Source: a virus
Length of the DNA stretch: 38,028 bases
IMG/VR virus record: IMGVR_UViG_3300048592_000291
Span: 1-38,028 of that record
Strand: one strand, 5' to 3'
Part shown: positions 3,995 through 33,543 of the stretch, in pieces
Layout: each line of letters starts with the position of its first letter
How positions within the stretch are numbered: the first letter of the stretch is position 1
Translations under genes and position numbers: made by a program
Notes under the pieces: model-generated
Told to the model about the DNA's origin: nothing
Database searches by the model: none
The model's input: the letters and a program-made list of their open reading frames with translations, nothing else

Positions 3995-4830
3995 TGAGAT
4001 TGCTGGTCTATACGCCGACATTTGGCGATGGGCTGCTGGGCGAGTGCCGTGAGTCGGTGCTGACCCAGCAATACGGCGACTGGAAATGGATCATCGACGA
4101 TGATGATCCATTTCCAGCGCCGGACTACCGCAACGTGTTGGCGAAGTACCGGCGAGCGCGAGCGTTGACGCTATCTGGCGACTATGATGCGCTGGTGACG
4201 GTGGAGCATGACATGGTGCTGCCGGTCGATGCGCTGGCCAGGTTGGCGGCGACAGATGCGCCGGTCGTGTTCGGGGTGTACGCGCTGCGGCACGGAGCGT
4301 TTGTGCTGAATGCCTGCCGCTATGAAAACGACCGCAACGTAGGCATGAGCTTGTCGTTTTATGCGAGCGAGTTGCGGATGCTGCGGCGGGCGGGCGTGGG
4401 CCGGGTGAGTGGCGTGGGCTGGGGCTGCACGTTGGTGCGGCGGGAAGTGCTGGAGCAGACGCCGCTAGATGATGGCGGCGGGCAGTGCGCAGCGGGCGAT
4501 CTGCCGTTTGCGCAGTGGTGTCTGGCGAATCATGTAGTGATGCTGGCGCGCTTTGACGTAGCGTGCGGGCATGCGACGGGAGGGTCGGTGTTGATGCCAA
4601 ATGAAGCGACGGAAACGGTGACGGTGACGGCGCTGCAATCGCTGAACGTGCTGGCGGGCGGGGTGTCGCTGGCCATTGTGGCGGGCGAGCAATACGCGCT
4701 GCCGATTGGCGATGCGCTGGAGCTGCAACGGGCCGGGTATGTGCGCCAGGTAGCAGAGATTGAAACGGCGATGATGGATGATGCGCCGGGCGTGGAGCAT
4801 GCGGTGACGCGCAAAGGAAAGCGAAAATGA
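3994..4830 (+). CDS. GT-A-type glycosyltransferase-like protein in the capsid operon
   Basis: Encodes 278 residues with a GTG start that overlaps the capsid stop (TAGTG), so it depends on coupled translation. The N-terminus LVYTPTFGDGLLGECRESV (4-22) followed by the WKWIIDDDDP stretch resembles the nucleotide-sugar-binding start of family-2 GT-A transferases. ALVTVEHDMVLP (66-77) offers an EHD triad in place of the usual DXD metal site. GWGCTLVRREVLE (near 145) resembles the acceptor-side region of these enzymes. A product of this type could glycosylate the capsid, the tail or a host surface sugar to exclude other phages; position right after the capsid gene favours virion modification, but that is inference. 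No membrane segment is seen. A 15-bp inverted repeat lies inside the coding sequence at 4081-4116. Sure of the fold class, unsure of activity. Confidence 0.7.
   Translation: MRLLVYTPTFGDGLLGECRESVLTQQYGDWKWIIDDDDPFPAPDYRNVLAKYRRARALTLSGDYDALVTVEHDMVLPVDALARLAATDAPVVFGVYALRHGAFVLNACRYENDRNVGMSLSFYASELRMLRRAGVGRVSGVGWGCTLVRREVLEQTPLDDGGGQCAAGDLPFAQWCLANHVVMLARFDVACGHATGGSVLMPNEATETVTVTALQSLNVLAGGVSLAIVAGEQYALPIGDALELQRAGYVRQVAEIETAMMDDAPGVEHAVTRKGKRK
4081..4116 (+). other. 15-bp perfect stem-loop inside the glycosyltransferase gene
   Basis: TGGAAATGGATCATC (4081-4095) is followed, after GACGAT, by its exact reverse complement (4102-4116). The stem lies 87 nt into the gene just after the capsid gene. 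It may slow or attenuate transcription into the lower-demand genes; there is no T-run. Confidence 0.7.
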
Positions 4831-29278: not shown

Positions 29279-30577
29279 ATGCTGGAGAAACAATTGACGC
29301 AGGAGATCACGATCATCAACAACACCCTCTCGGCGTTCGGCGTGGACGCCGGAACCAAACCGGCATGGACGACGGTCGCCGGATCGTCGTTCGTGGCGTA
29401 TGGCCTGCGCACTGGCCCGGCGCAGCGAATCAGCGACGTGCAACGCCTGCTCCCGGAGTTGTCGGAGCGATTGAGCGCAGCACGCCGCAGGCCCACGCCG
29501 GTGCGCCTGCGTGAAATGCCGCTTGCGCTGGAAGTGGCGCACCCGTCACCCGCACCGCTGGATTGGCGTAATGCCACCATGCGCATTGGCGGCGGGCGCA
29601 TGGTGGCCGGGCGCATCTACGGCGCAGCGAGTGCGCACGACCTGGTGATCGACCTGGCGCAGAAGCCGCATGTGTTGGTGGCCGGCACGACCGGCAGCGG
29701 CAAGAGCACCATGCTGCGCATGATGCTATCGTCGCTGGCCTACAACGCCGATCCGGATGCGCTGCGGCTGGTGCTGGTGGATCTGAAAAACGAGGACCTG
29801 GTACCGTTCGCCACGTTGCCACACGTCGAATCGGCGGCGTGGCTAGCCGACGACGCCCGGCACGTCGTGACCGGCGTGCACGTCGAGTTGCAGCGGCGGG
29901 TGCTGGCCGGCGTGGGTGAGTGGCCGCGGCTGGTGCTGGTGATCGATGAGCTGGCGCAACTGGAAACGACGGCGCTTGACCTGCTCTCCTCGATCCTGGC
30001 GATTGGCCGCAGCAAGCGGGTGCACGTGATCGCAGCCACGCAGCATCCAGCCGTGCGGCTGATCGGCGACAAGGCGAACTACAGCGTGCGATTAGTGGGG
30101 CAAGTCATGGACGCACAGACGGCCGCACTTGCAACCGGGCGCAAGGGTTCCGGGGCGGAGTTGCTGCCGGGTGCGGGTGCGTTTCTCTACGTGGACGGCT
30201 CACAGATCGAGCGGCTGCAGGCCTACAACCTCAACGCCGAGGCGGTCGCCGGGCTGGTGCGGGTGGTGCGGGAAAAGTGGTGCGAAAGTGGTGCGTCCGC
30301 ACCGGTGCGCACTGGTGCGCCAGAGGTAGAAGTGCTGCCGGCGCCACAAACGAGCGTACCCGCACCAGTGCGCACCGGTGTGACGTTTCCGCTGCCACGC
30401 CGCGCACCGACGCCAGCCGAAGCGGTAGAAATACGCCGGATGCGTGCGGAGTTGGGAAGTCTTAATCAGTTGATCGTCGCTGTGTACGGAAGCAAATCAT
30501 CTGATACGCATCGATGGGTGAGCGAGGCGCTGTCACAGCCTGAAGTAGCGCCGATTTTGAAACTAGGAGCGAGATAA
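29279..30577 (+). CDS. FtsK/SpoIIIE-type DNA translocase
   Basis: Encodes 432 residues. Walker A AGTTGSGKST (135-144), Walker B VLVIDEL (219-225) and the following AAATQHPA-like sensor (VIAATQHPAVRLIGDKAN) place it in the FtsK/HerA ATPase family, which pumps double-stranded DNA. There is no N-terminal membrane domain, unlike cellular FtsK, and the last 60 residues (PTPAEAVEIRRMRAELGSLN and YGSKSSDTHRWVSEALSQP) look like a small winged-helix domain comparable to the FtsK gamma domain that reads DNA direction. Phages and integrative plasmids carry such translocases for replication, partitioning or transfer. A 22-bp inverted repeat lies within its own gene at 30298-30382. GGAG stands upstream of the ATG. 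Confidence 0.88.
   Translation: MLEKQLTQEITIINNTLSAFGVDAGTKPAWTTVAGSSFVAYGLRTGPAQRISDVQRLLPELSERLSAARRRPTPVRLREMPLALEVAHPSPAPLDWRNATMRIGGGRMVAGRIYGAASAHDLVIDLAQKPHVLVAGTTGSGKSTMLRMMLSSLAYNADPDALRLVLVDLKNEDLVPFATLPHVESAAWLADDARHVVTGVHVELQRRVLAGVGEWPRLVLVIDELAQLETTALDLLSSILAIGRSKRVHVIAATQHPAVRLIGDKANYSVRLVGQVMDAQTAALATGRKGSGAELLPGAGAFLYVDGSQIERLQAYNLNAEAVAGLVRVVREKWCESGASAPVRTGAPEVEVLPAPQTSVPAPVRTGVTFPLPRRAPTPAEAVEIRRMRAELGSLNQLIVAVYGSKSSDTHRWVSEALSQPEVAPILKLGAR
30298..30382. repeat. 22-bp inverted repeat inside the translocase gene
   Basis: Bases 30298-30319 and 30361-30382 are reverse complements with one mismatch, 41 bp apart. Each arm contains TGCGCA-type and CACCGGTG-type palindromes. The sites encode part of the Pro-rich linker. 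They may be the recognition site of the translocase or of a regulator; inferred. Confidence 0.6.
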
Positions 30578-31744: not shown

Positions 31745-31773
31745 TTGACATTTGTATAGCGTAGTACTATACT
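31745..31773 (+). promoter_or_regulatory. Consensus promoter with operator-like inverted repeat
   Basis: TTGACA (31745-31750), a 17-base spacer and TATACT (31768-31773). GTATAG (31754-31759) and CTATAC (31767-31772) form an inverted repeat across the -10, and GTAGTACTATACTAG resembles GTAGTATACTAG at the promoter near 33595. A repressor site is likely. The region 31712-31832 holds nothing else. Confidence 0.85.
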
Positions 31774-31832
31774 AGATATAGACATGCGGGTGAAACAAAG
31801 TAGCCCGACAAGGCAAATGAGGAGAATGAAAG

Positions 31833-32033: not shown

Positions 32034-32084
32034 AACAGAGGTCAAAGCCGAGCCGGGCGGCGAATCCCGGCGAAATGGGAAATC

Positions 32085-32312
32085 ATGAAAACCGTAATAC
32101 TGAACGAATCCGGCTACGATACCGGCATGACATTTGAGGAATACTGCACCGAAGCCGCCAAGCACGGCGACAACCCGGCAGACTACAGCACCGACATTGA
32201 AGAGTTTCGTTTTGTCGGATGGGAATACGCCCAGGGTGATCCGTTCTGGAATGATGGGAGCCTGGAAAACTGGCCCGAATCGCTCCCGCTTTGGGTATAC
32301 ACGGGAGATTGA
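32085..32312 (+). CDS. Small acidic protein
   Basis: Encodes 75 residues, acidic overall, with FEEYCTEAAKHGDNPADYST and the aromatic end VGWEYAQGDPFWNDGSLEN. The leader (32052-32071) has a small stem GCCGGG/CCCGGC before the ATG, but no strong Shine-Dalgarno sequence is present. The next gene starts two bases after its stop. An anti-host or DNA-mimic role is possible for an acidic protein, but is speculation. Family unknown. Confidence 0.6.
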   Translation: MKTVILNESGYDTGMTFEEYCTEAAKHGDNPADYSTDIEEFRFVGWEYAQGDPFWNDGSLENWPESLPLWVYTGD

Positions 32313-32313
32313 C

Positions 32314-32517
32314 ATGAACACACCAGACAGCCGCCAGTACAACGTCAGACTCCCCCGCCTGACACAAACGCAGCTAGAGGAGTTAGCCGCCGCGACCGGG
32401 CTGACAACGACACAAACGGTGATCGTTGCCATCGACCGGATGCACCATCAACTCATGGTGCAAGGCGAGCAGGAACGGATGATCGACTACTACGCGGCGC
32501 AGAATAGCGCCGCCTAA
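32314..32517 (+). CDS. Ribbon-helix-helix protein, paralogue 1
   Basis: Encodes 67 residues with GGGAG six bases before the ATG. QYNVRLPRLTQTQLEELAAA (8-27) has the beta-strand then helix of Arc/CopG-type RHH proteins, and GLTTTQTVIVAIDRMHHQ is the second helix. Such dimers insert a two-stranded ribbon into the DNA major groove and usually repress their own promoter. A paralogue with the same plan lies at 33249-33449. The two promoters in this area share a TATACTAG palindrome that they could bind. I infer autoregulation. Confidence 0.7.
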   Translation: MNTPDSRQYNVRLPRLTQTQLEELAAATGLTTTQTVIVAIDRMHHQLMVQGEQERMIDYYAAQNSAA

Positions 32518-32526
32518 ACCAACCAA

Positions 32527-32569
32527 CACCCGGCCAGCCGTGGAAGCCGGGGGAAGCGGCAACAAGGAG
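32527..32569 (+). promoter_or_regulatory. Conserved pseudoknot-capable leader, copy A
   Basis: CCCGGC (32529-32534) pairs with GCCGGG (32546-32551) around the loop CAGCCGTGGAA. GCCG in the loop (32537-32540) can pair with CGGC (32557-32560), forming an H-type pseudoknot. AAGGAG (32564-32569) follows and the ATG is at 32574. Copy B at 33004-33046 has the same geometry with a compensatory C-G to T-A pair. Confidence 0.7.
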
Positions 32570-32573
32570 CATT

Positions 32574-32915
32574 ATGAACTACGCAATTGCTAACCGAAAG
32601 GATGTGTTGGATTGCATGCAGTCCAACGGTGTAGAATGGGTTCACCTTAGCTTTGACCGCGACTGGCGCAGTCATGGCGGATACTCGAGGGACTCCTCGC
32701 CTGAAGGGATCGAGGCGAGAGAGACGATCGGTGGAGTGGAAAGATTACAGAAGGACTTGCGCGAAAAAGTAGTCCGGGAAGTCCCGGACTACAAGTACGG
32801 ATGGGGGGTGGTGTGCATAGCATACCAAAACACACCACCTCCGTTCCCGTATGTGGACGTGAGAACGGACGGAGAAGGAGACTCCTTCGTGGAGAAGCTC
32901 CGTGTCGCCCGGTAG
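32574..32915 (+). CDS. Unknown protein; gene rich in RNA hairpins
   Basis: Encodes 113 residues preceded by AAGGAG within the conserved leader. The N-terminal half (NRKDVLDCMQSNGVEWVHLS, FDRDWRSHGGYSRD) looks protein-like. The latter part contains many perfect inverted repeats at DNA level, for example 32769-32792 (ten-base stem, four-base loop) and the nested stem at 32797-32844. These could mean that the 3' half is a structured RNA overlapping the frame, or that the gene tolerates them by chance. Codon use in this part is less convincing. No family recognised. Confidence 0.5.
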   Translation: MNYAIANRKDVLDCMQSNGVEWVHLSFDRDWRSHGGYSRDSSPEGIEARETIGGVERLQKDLREKVVREVPDYKYGWGVVCIAYQNTPPPFPYVDVRTDGEGDSFVEKLRVAR

Positions 32916-33000
32916 TACCGCCCCCAGCCGGAGGGGTAAATCCGGCACTAATCCCCAAAAGGGGACTGCCCGCCGCAACCGTGCGGTAGGGCGCAACCAA
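32697..33000 (+). other. Region unusually dense in stem-loops
   Basis: Plus-strand hairpins follow one another: CTCGCCT/AGGCGAG (around 32697-32723), GTAGTCCGGG/CCCGGACTAC (32769-32792), ACGGA...GGTGGTGTG with CACACCACC-TCCGT (32797-32844), ACGGAG/CTCCGT enclosing AAGGAG/CTCCTT (around 32869-32905), GCCC-CCGCA with TGCGG-GGGC in the 80 bases after the stop codon. The stretch 32916-33003 has no gene. A structured RNA is possible. Confidence 0.5.
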
Positions 33001-33003
33001 TCA

Positions 33004-33046
33004 CACCCGGTCAGCCGTAGCCACCGGGGGAAGCGGCAAGAAGGAG
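33004..33046 (+). promoter_or_regulatory. Conserved pseudoknot-capable leader, copy B
   Basis: CCCGGT (33006-33011) pairs with ACCGGG (33023-33028) around CAGCCGTAGCC; GCCG (33014-33017) can pair with CGGC (33034-33037); AAGGAG is at 33041-33046 and the ATG at 33053. About 37 of 43 bases match copy A, and the stem change is compensatory. Confidence 0.7.
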
Positions 33047-33449: not shown

Positions 33450-33474
33450 CCACCACAAAGCGCCGCTTCACACG

Positions 33475-33510
33475 CCGCCCGATCCGCACAGATGGATCGG
33501 GCGGTTTTTT
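33475..33510 (+). terminator. Strong intrinsic terminator
   Basis: CCGCCCGATCC (33475-33485) and GGATCGGGCGG (33494-33504) form a perfect eleven-base stem with an eight-base loop, followed by six T residues (33505-33510). It ends the operon started at 31745. Confidence 0.92.
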
Positions 33511-33543
33511 GTTGGCGTGCAGGATCGCCGCTCAACTTTACGA

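Follow-up and report, generated by a model that had tools for sequence, protein, structure and literature searches.

A repeated hairpin leader before unrelated small genes of a phage accessory operon, a possible portable translation-initiation element

Introduction

Phage genomes are known to reuse short sequences ahead of otherwise dissimilar genes. In cluster K mycobacteriophages, the short repeats called SAS and ESAS immediately precede genes that are unrelated to one another. Most of these repeats lie away from the structural module, and about half of them have an adjoining imperfect inverted repeat. The SAS consensus spans 13 bp (GGGATAGGAGCCC), the ESAS inverted repeats are 17-bp, imperfect and separated by a variable spacer, and the role in expression proposed for both is unproven (PMC3203893; PMC12699233). 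Here, we describe a repeated element in an IMG/VR virus record of 38,028 bases that carries portal, major head and terminase genes; we refer to this whole stretch of DNA as the window. Like SAS/ESAS, the element, of which four contigs carry nine copies, stands directly ahead of the start codon of phage genes that are unrelated. Its sequence does not fit GGGATAGGAGCCC, and its stem of 6 bp with a loop of 11-13 nt is unlike the 17-bp repeats of ESAS. Whereas SAS/ESAS are found in many copies genome-wide, the element is present in one to three copies within one accessory operon only, and unlike SAS/ESAS it has a conserved loop and tail and moves between phages with unlike virion genes. Because both the sequence and the repeat length differ, the element is not a member of SAS/ESAS. 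SAS/ESAS are the closest described kind, and the element appears to be a compact counterpart in other phages.

Three further systems bear comparison with this locus. The gene 32 operator of T4 and RB69 is an intercistronic phage leader with a pseudoknot 5' of the SD; in T4 there is a single such operator, to which the ssDNA-binding protein of the phage itself binds, and a long UUAAA/UAAA-bearing tract follows the pseudoknot (PMC535899). In T4/RB69 gene 32 the pseudoknot can lie partly within the preceding reading frame, as is the case for one copy of the element. Unlike the T4 operator, the element is found in several copies before unrelated genes, its A/C-rich tract lies before the stem, and its pseudoknot is putative. 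The acr-aca operons hold small unrelated genes, with a small DNA-binding-type regulator last and an inverted repeat at the promoter (PMC9410906, PMC8434428). The operon described here has the same three traits, but its regulator is RHH-like (ribbon-helix-helix-like) rather than an HTH Aca, the element is repeated before internal cistrons, and the cargo consists of ORFs without significant family match. Among the regulator matches there was no Aca model, only weak RHH-like ones. Besides the promoter, Aca2 also acts on mRNA stem-loops. Archaeal viruses reuse one promoter block before many unrelated small anti-defence genes (PMC11065993). Reuse before unrelated small genes is common to both cases, whereas the archaeal block is a promoter and the element is an intercistronic leader with an SD.

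Results

Layout of the operon

The two copies of the element in the window, W1 and W2, lie within an operon of small ORFs that runs from a predicted sigma70-type promoter to an intrinsic-terminator-like stretch (Table 1). Some internal cistrons, those starting at 32085, 32314 and 33249, have no element in front. The operon's small ORFs gave no significant family match, and this includes the 113-aa and 62-aa cargo ORFs in Pfam, PHROGs and PADLOC. Two of the products are weakly assignable as small regulators. RHH1 matches phrog_876 (transcriptional repressor, E=0.00039) and a RelB-like antitoxin (E=0.0024, below cut-off), and RHH2, the last gene, matches phrog_3887 (transcriptional regulator, E=0.00023) and, among PDB sequences, CopG (E=1). 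TAL-effector matches in the PDB-sequence profile search were rejected as helix-repeat noise from a profile of four sequences only. Structure models of RHH2 (pLDDT 69.8, no significant fold match) and of the 113-aa cargo protein (low confidence, pLDDT 52.8) were left out of the evidence. Ahead of the 75-aa ORF, at 32052-32071, a GC hairpin GCCGGG/CCCGGC has the arms of the element in swapped order.

Table 1. Features of the operon and copies of the element (positions are those of the window unless another contig is named)
Feature	Position	Strand	Details
Predicted operon promoter (sigma70-type)	31745-31773	+	TTGACA 31745, TATACT 31768
5' leader hairpin	31787-31807	+	5-bp stem, loop GAAACAAAGUA; counterparts L092 3444-3464, L116 4933-4953
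ORF, 66 aa	31833-32033	+	first cistron
ORF, 75 aa	32085-32312	+
RHH1, 67 aa	32314-32517	+	ribbon-helix-helix-like small regulator
A/C-rich stretch ahead of W1	32514-32528	+	W2 counterpart at 32994-33005
Element copy W1	32526-32569	+	precedes ATG 32574; SD AAGGAG 32564-32569
W1 stem (S1) arms	32529-32534 / 32546-32551
W1 loop-tail helix (S2) arms	32537-32541 / 32556-32560
Cargo ORF after W1, 113 aa	32574-32915	+
Intercistronic spacer	32916-33002	+	hairpins 32953-32964, 32968-32992
Element copy W2	33003-33046	+	precedes ATG 33053; SD 33041-33046
W2 stem (S1) arms	33006-33011 / 33023-33028
W2 loop-tail helix (S2) arms	33014-33018 / 33033-33037
Cargo ORF after W2, 62 aa	33053-33241	+
RHH2, 66 aa	33249-33449	+	ribbon-helix-helix-like small regulator, last gene
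Intrinsic-terminator-like stretch	33469-33519	+	closes operon
Element copy in L083	12859 (start)
Element copies L092a, L092b, L092c	3739, 4016, 4516 (starts)
Element copies L116a, L116b, L116c	5231, 5723, 5941 (starts)

At the promoter, an inverted repeat GTATAG-N7-CTATAC between and over the hexamers is a candidate operator. Two related operons (in contigs L092 and L116, see below) share this layout; their repeat, ATTGTACC-N9-GGTACAAT, differs from that of the window and is stronger. By shuffles, the repeat of these two promoters has a chance of 0.45%, while that of the window, at 10%, is not unusual. The hairpin in the 5' leader is shared as well: its loop, GAAACAAAGUA, is identical in the window, L092 and L116, and its stem differs. 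Between the window and L116 two pairs are changed on both sides (0.1% in a random-substitution test); in L092 the loop-closing pair is a mismatch. The covariation evidence for this leader hairpin is better than that for the repeated element.

Nine copies of the element in four contigs

The first-pass annotation had reported a repeat at equal distances from AAGGAG and ATG of two unrelated genes. The repeat is real: W1 and W2 are identical at 38 of 44 nt (86%), and a consensus search allowing up to 3 mismatches found these two sites alone in the window and none in 100 dinucleotide shuffles. The following 113-aa and 62-aa ORFs do look unrelated. The spacing is similar rather than equal, with 4 nt from AAGGAG to ATG in W1 vs 6 nt in W2.

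Seven further copies were found in three IMG/VR contigs. L083 (contig 3300048592_000391) was reached via a relative of the FtsK/SpoIIIE-like ATPase gene of the window (29279-30577; phrog_1358, E=3e-38; 85% identical in the L083 contig), and L092 (3300048592_000103) and L109/L116 (3300048589_000333, here L116) were reached via pattern scans. A covariance model made from six copies scored the nine from 69 down to 34.5 bits, and the next hits were noise at about 16 bits. Beyond these three contigs, pattern scans of IMG/VR and of 84,980 species genomes gave only matches without the SD/ATG context of the element. BLAST searches with the region (phages and plasmids) and with RHH2 (phages) gave no match, and the complete records of the related contigs held no extra copies.

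In all nine copies the element is on the coding strand with an SD and a start codon downstream. Eight of them follow one order: an A/C-rich stretch, CCCGGY, the loop, RCCGRG, GGRA, GCGGC, AA and the SD, and the sole base change in GCGGC among these eight is in L116a (GGGGC). The 20 nt before the stem of the eight copies are 86% A+C, compared with 47% (sd 12%) for 20-mers of the window. Relative to the element the start codon is in all three frames, which rules out a conserved coding peptide. The L083 copy has the equivalent location, following an RHH gene that is related at ~70% nucleotide identity; both of its stem arms, the loop GCCG and GGAAGCGGCAA are identical, and the loop has indels. 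Of the nine copies, the six in L092 and L116 come from a single phage lineage and hardly differ, so recent copying, and not selection, may account for their similarity. The ninth copy, L116c, has a degenerate 5' stem arm and sits within the end of an ORF. This ORF (L116 5775-6011) runs through the shortened copy, a strong upstream hairpin GGGCGCGT/ACGCGCCC replaces the lost arm, and the arrangement looks like a recombination product.

Gene exchange at the element

The leader had been read as the part that is kept while coding sequences change. This holds in the four contigs, with both insertion and replacement at the element. W1 and L092a are 98% identical over 59 nt (32526-32584), from the start of the element through codon 4; the cargo genes behind them have only the leader and the MNYA codons in common, and the proteins differ beyond. 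In the window a 62-aa ORF sits between W2 and RHH2, and in L092 and L116, which do not have it there, the element runs straight into RHH2 (87-90% nucleotide identity with the window). From the divergence after codon 4 and the presence or absence of the 62-aa ORF it follows that operon contents change at the element. The same block of ~44 nt thus stands before the starts of different small genes, and genes have been gained, lost and swapped there. Virion genes of the L092/L116 phages had no similarity to those of the window detectable by blastn or tblastx, although the module is shared, which argues that the module moves by itself. In L116, major capsid and minor head genes adjoin the operon on the opposite strand.

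The spacer ahead of W2 is common to the window and L092 (4429-4515) only, at 86% over 113 nt, and its pattern had no match in other viral contigs. In its first hairpin (window 32917-32937; L092 4432-4452) the inner ~21 bases are inverted between the phages, being reverse complements at ~20/21, the pattern that template switching at an inverted repeat would leave. The third hairpin (window 32968-32992; L092 4483-4507) has CCGC/GCGG in one and CCAC/GTGG in the other, one compensatory pair.

Stem, loop-tail helix and start site

The stem, S1, is 6 bp (CCCGGC/GCCGGG in W1, CCCGGU/ACCGGG in W2) and is present in eight copies, with one mismatch in one of them (L116b). Most copies have C-G at the pair closing the loop; W2 has U-A there and L092c has U-G. 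The shared structured spacer lies ahead of both W2 and L092c, which marks them as positional counterparts and makes a path from C-G through U-G to U-A natural. The exchange between W1 and W2 had been called compensatory, which is correct for these two copies; it is the only covarying pair of the element, and over six copies the observed covariation was reached by 195 of 500 shuffles and is not significant. Random placement of the six substitutions between W1 and W2 left all 11 pairs intact and produced one or more double changes in 1.0% of trials, for a structure picked after seeing those two copies.

The reported complementary tetranucleotides, GCCG within the loop and CGGC on the 3' side of the stem, occur in both copies of the window. 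The resulting loop-tail helix, S2 (GCCGU/GCGGC), has 5 bp including one G-U in both. Its pairing is complete in eight of the nine copies, its five pairs never covary, and S2-like pairing arises by chance in about 5-20% of shuffled loops and tails, per copy. An H-type pseudoknot is compatible with the sequence and not established. Further copies with both helices broken had been named as counter-evidence; there are none among the seven, nor among all nine, which by itself does not establish the pseudoknot. L116a breaks one S2 pair only, L116b one S1 pair only, and L116c keeps S2 intact with a poor 5' S1 arm. Given that two of the few substitutions in the L092/L116 lineage break a pair, and that a copy which lost a proper 5' arm yet stands before RHH2, the full structure seems dispensable.

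In folds predicted without pseudoknots, S1 is dominant in most copies and the SD region is 46-73% unpaired; in W2 the S2 pairing is preferred over S1. Pairing that would mask the SD is absent from most copies. Upstream of the ATG, S1 ends at a distance of 22-26 nt, beyond the usual 30S footprint, and the S2 arm ends at 13-17 nt, within that footprint. Neither the window nor, at permissive thresholds, the region gave an Rfam match, and we rejected a known RNA family or riboswitch, as no curated covariance model matches the element.

Discussion

We propose, with a probability of roughly one half, that the element serves translation initiation as a portable, start-associated part of a mobile accessory ('moron'-like) phage operon. 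On the polycistronic mRNA, it would supply an unstructured A/C-rich landing stretch, then a GC-rich 6-bp hairpin, then an SD 0-5 nt behind the GCGGC tail. The hairpin may shield each start from ribosomes ending the upstream gene and from local misfolding, and the A/C-rich stretch and open SD could allow independent 30S loading, such that a gene dropped behind the element would be translated. The short homology that the element provides would also favor cassette exchange. As the edge of S2 falls inside the 30S footprint, opening or closing of the putative pseudoknot might tune initiation and work as a switch, and in this respect the first-pass annotation may still be right.

Gene exchange at the element could also come about without any RNA function, the element being a short repeat kept by recombination as homology for, or a remnant of, cassette exchange in the phage mosaic. 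Gain and loss boundaries at the element, near-identical copies within a lineage, the pairs broken in L116a/b and the recombinant-like L116c with its degenerate arm are all in keeping with this. A mere recombination site would not have to lie always on the coding strand and upstream of an SD and start codon, and in L083 the arms and tail are identical though the neighboring sequence is at ~70%; we regard this explanation as improbable. The position at start codons also weighs on a role in mRNA processing or stability, in which cleavage in the A/C-rich stretch would leave a 5' hairpin protecting each downstream cistron. Here a GC hairpin does adjoin an unstructured stretch between cistrons, and a structured spacer precedes W2. 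But the stretch is A/C-rich, not A/U-rich as in usual RNase E sites, and stability alone does not need such close coupling to SD and start codon, making this role rather unlikely as well.

Whether the element is itself regulated is a separate matter. The first-pass annotation held a protein- or ligand-controlled switch to be likely, which exceeds the evidence given that no Rfam family matches and the SD is unmasked in most copies; a constitutive role in translation initiation and insulation explains the data as well as a controlled switch does. A small-molecule riboswitch, an H-type pseudoknot at the SD in the style of preQ1-I or SAM-II, would have a similar geometry, with a hairpin loop able to pair with the tail before the SD. 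It is very improbable, since even permissive Rfam thresholds gave no match, the cargo is unrelated small phage ORFs without a metabolic theme, and there are several copies per operon. A DNA operator at the promoter was rejected because the copies sit inside the operon. Regulation by a protein is a less distant prospect, and we consider it unlikely on balance: an operon-encoded protein, most simply the last-gene RHH-like one, would bind the hairpin or pseudoknot and block 30S at each internal cistron, and a single regulator would thereby hold down all cargo genes together. Such control would resemble that by Aca2 in anti-CRISPR operons, at promoter and mRNA, or that by T4 gp32 at its pseudoknot operator. 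Near-identical RNA sites repeated close to the SD would suit such an operator, as would the small unrelated ORFs with a conserved small regulator last and a palindrome at the promoter. In L092 and L116 the regulator gene is itself preceded by the element, and an ART-like protein, weakly matching the AcrIF11 model, is encoded by the adjoining small operon of L116. Against this, the RNA fold lacks proving covariation, RHH1 is the only RHH gene of the L083 locus and one of two in the window, the RHH assignment itself is weak, and RHH proteins normally bind DNA. By analogy with the Aca proteins of anti-CRISPR operons (PMC9410906) and with gp32 of T4 (PMC535899), the RHH-like protein is a plausible candidate ligand of the element. 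The fuller version, in which one RHH protein controls the operon twice, at the promoter palindrome as DNA and at internal RNA pseudoknot operators, and new anti-defence genes come under control by landing behind the element, strikes us as improbable.

A portable initiation element would bear on how phages accommodate new genes. Phages keep acquiring small accessory genes that need immediate expression, and a reusable leader that makes inserted genes translatable would explain how operons work despite changing contents. The element could also act as a sequence tag, allowing new accessory (perhaps anti-defence) genes to be found in uncultured phages by searching for the leader instead of the protein. 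What SAS/ESAS do has been an open question since 2011, and a compact form with distinct hairpins and a neighboring candidate regulator would be easily testable.

One neighbor of the operon may hint at what such loci carry. In L116, a 99-aa ADP-ribosyltransferase-like ORF (4166-4465) lies in a small operon of its own; it matches a PARP model (E=0.0019) and an AcrIF11 model (E=0.042), neither of them reaching the cut-off, and so hints weakly that loci of this kind may carry anti-defence genes. The terminator stretch behind this small operon is 98% identical over 51 nt to the one that closes the operon of the window.
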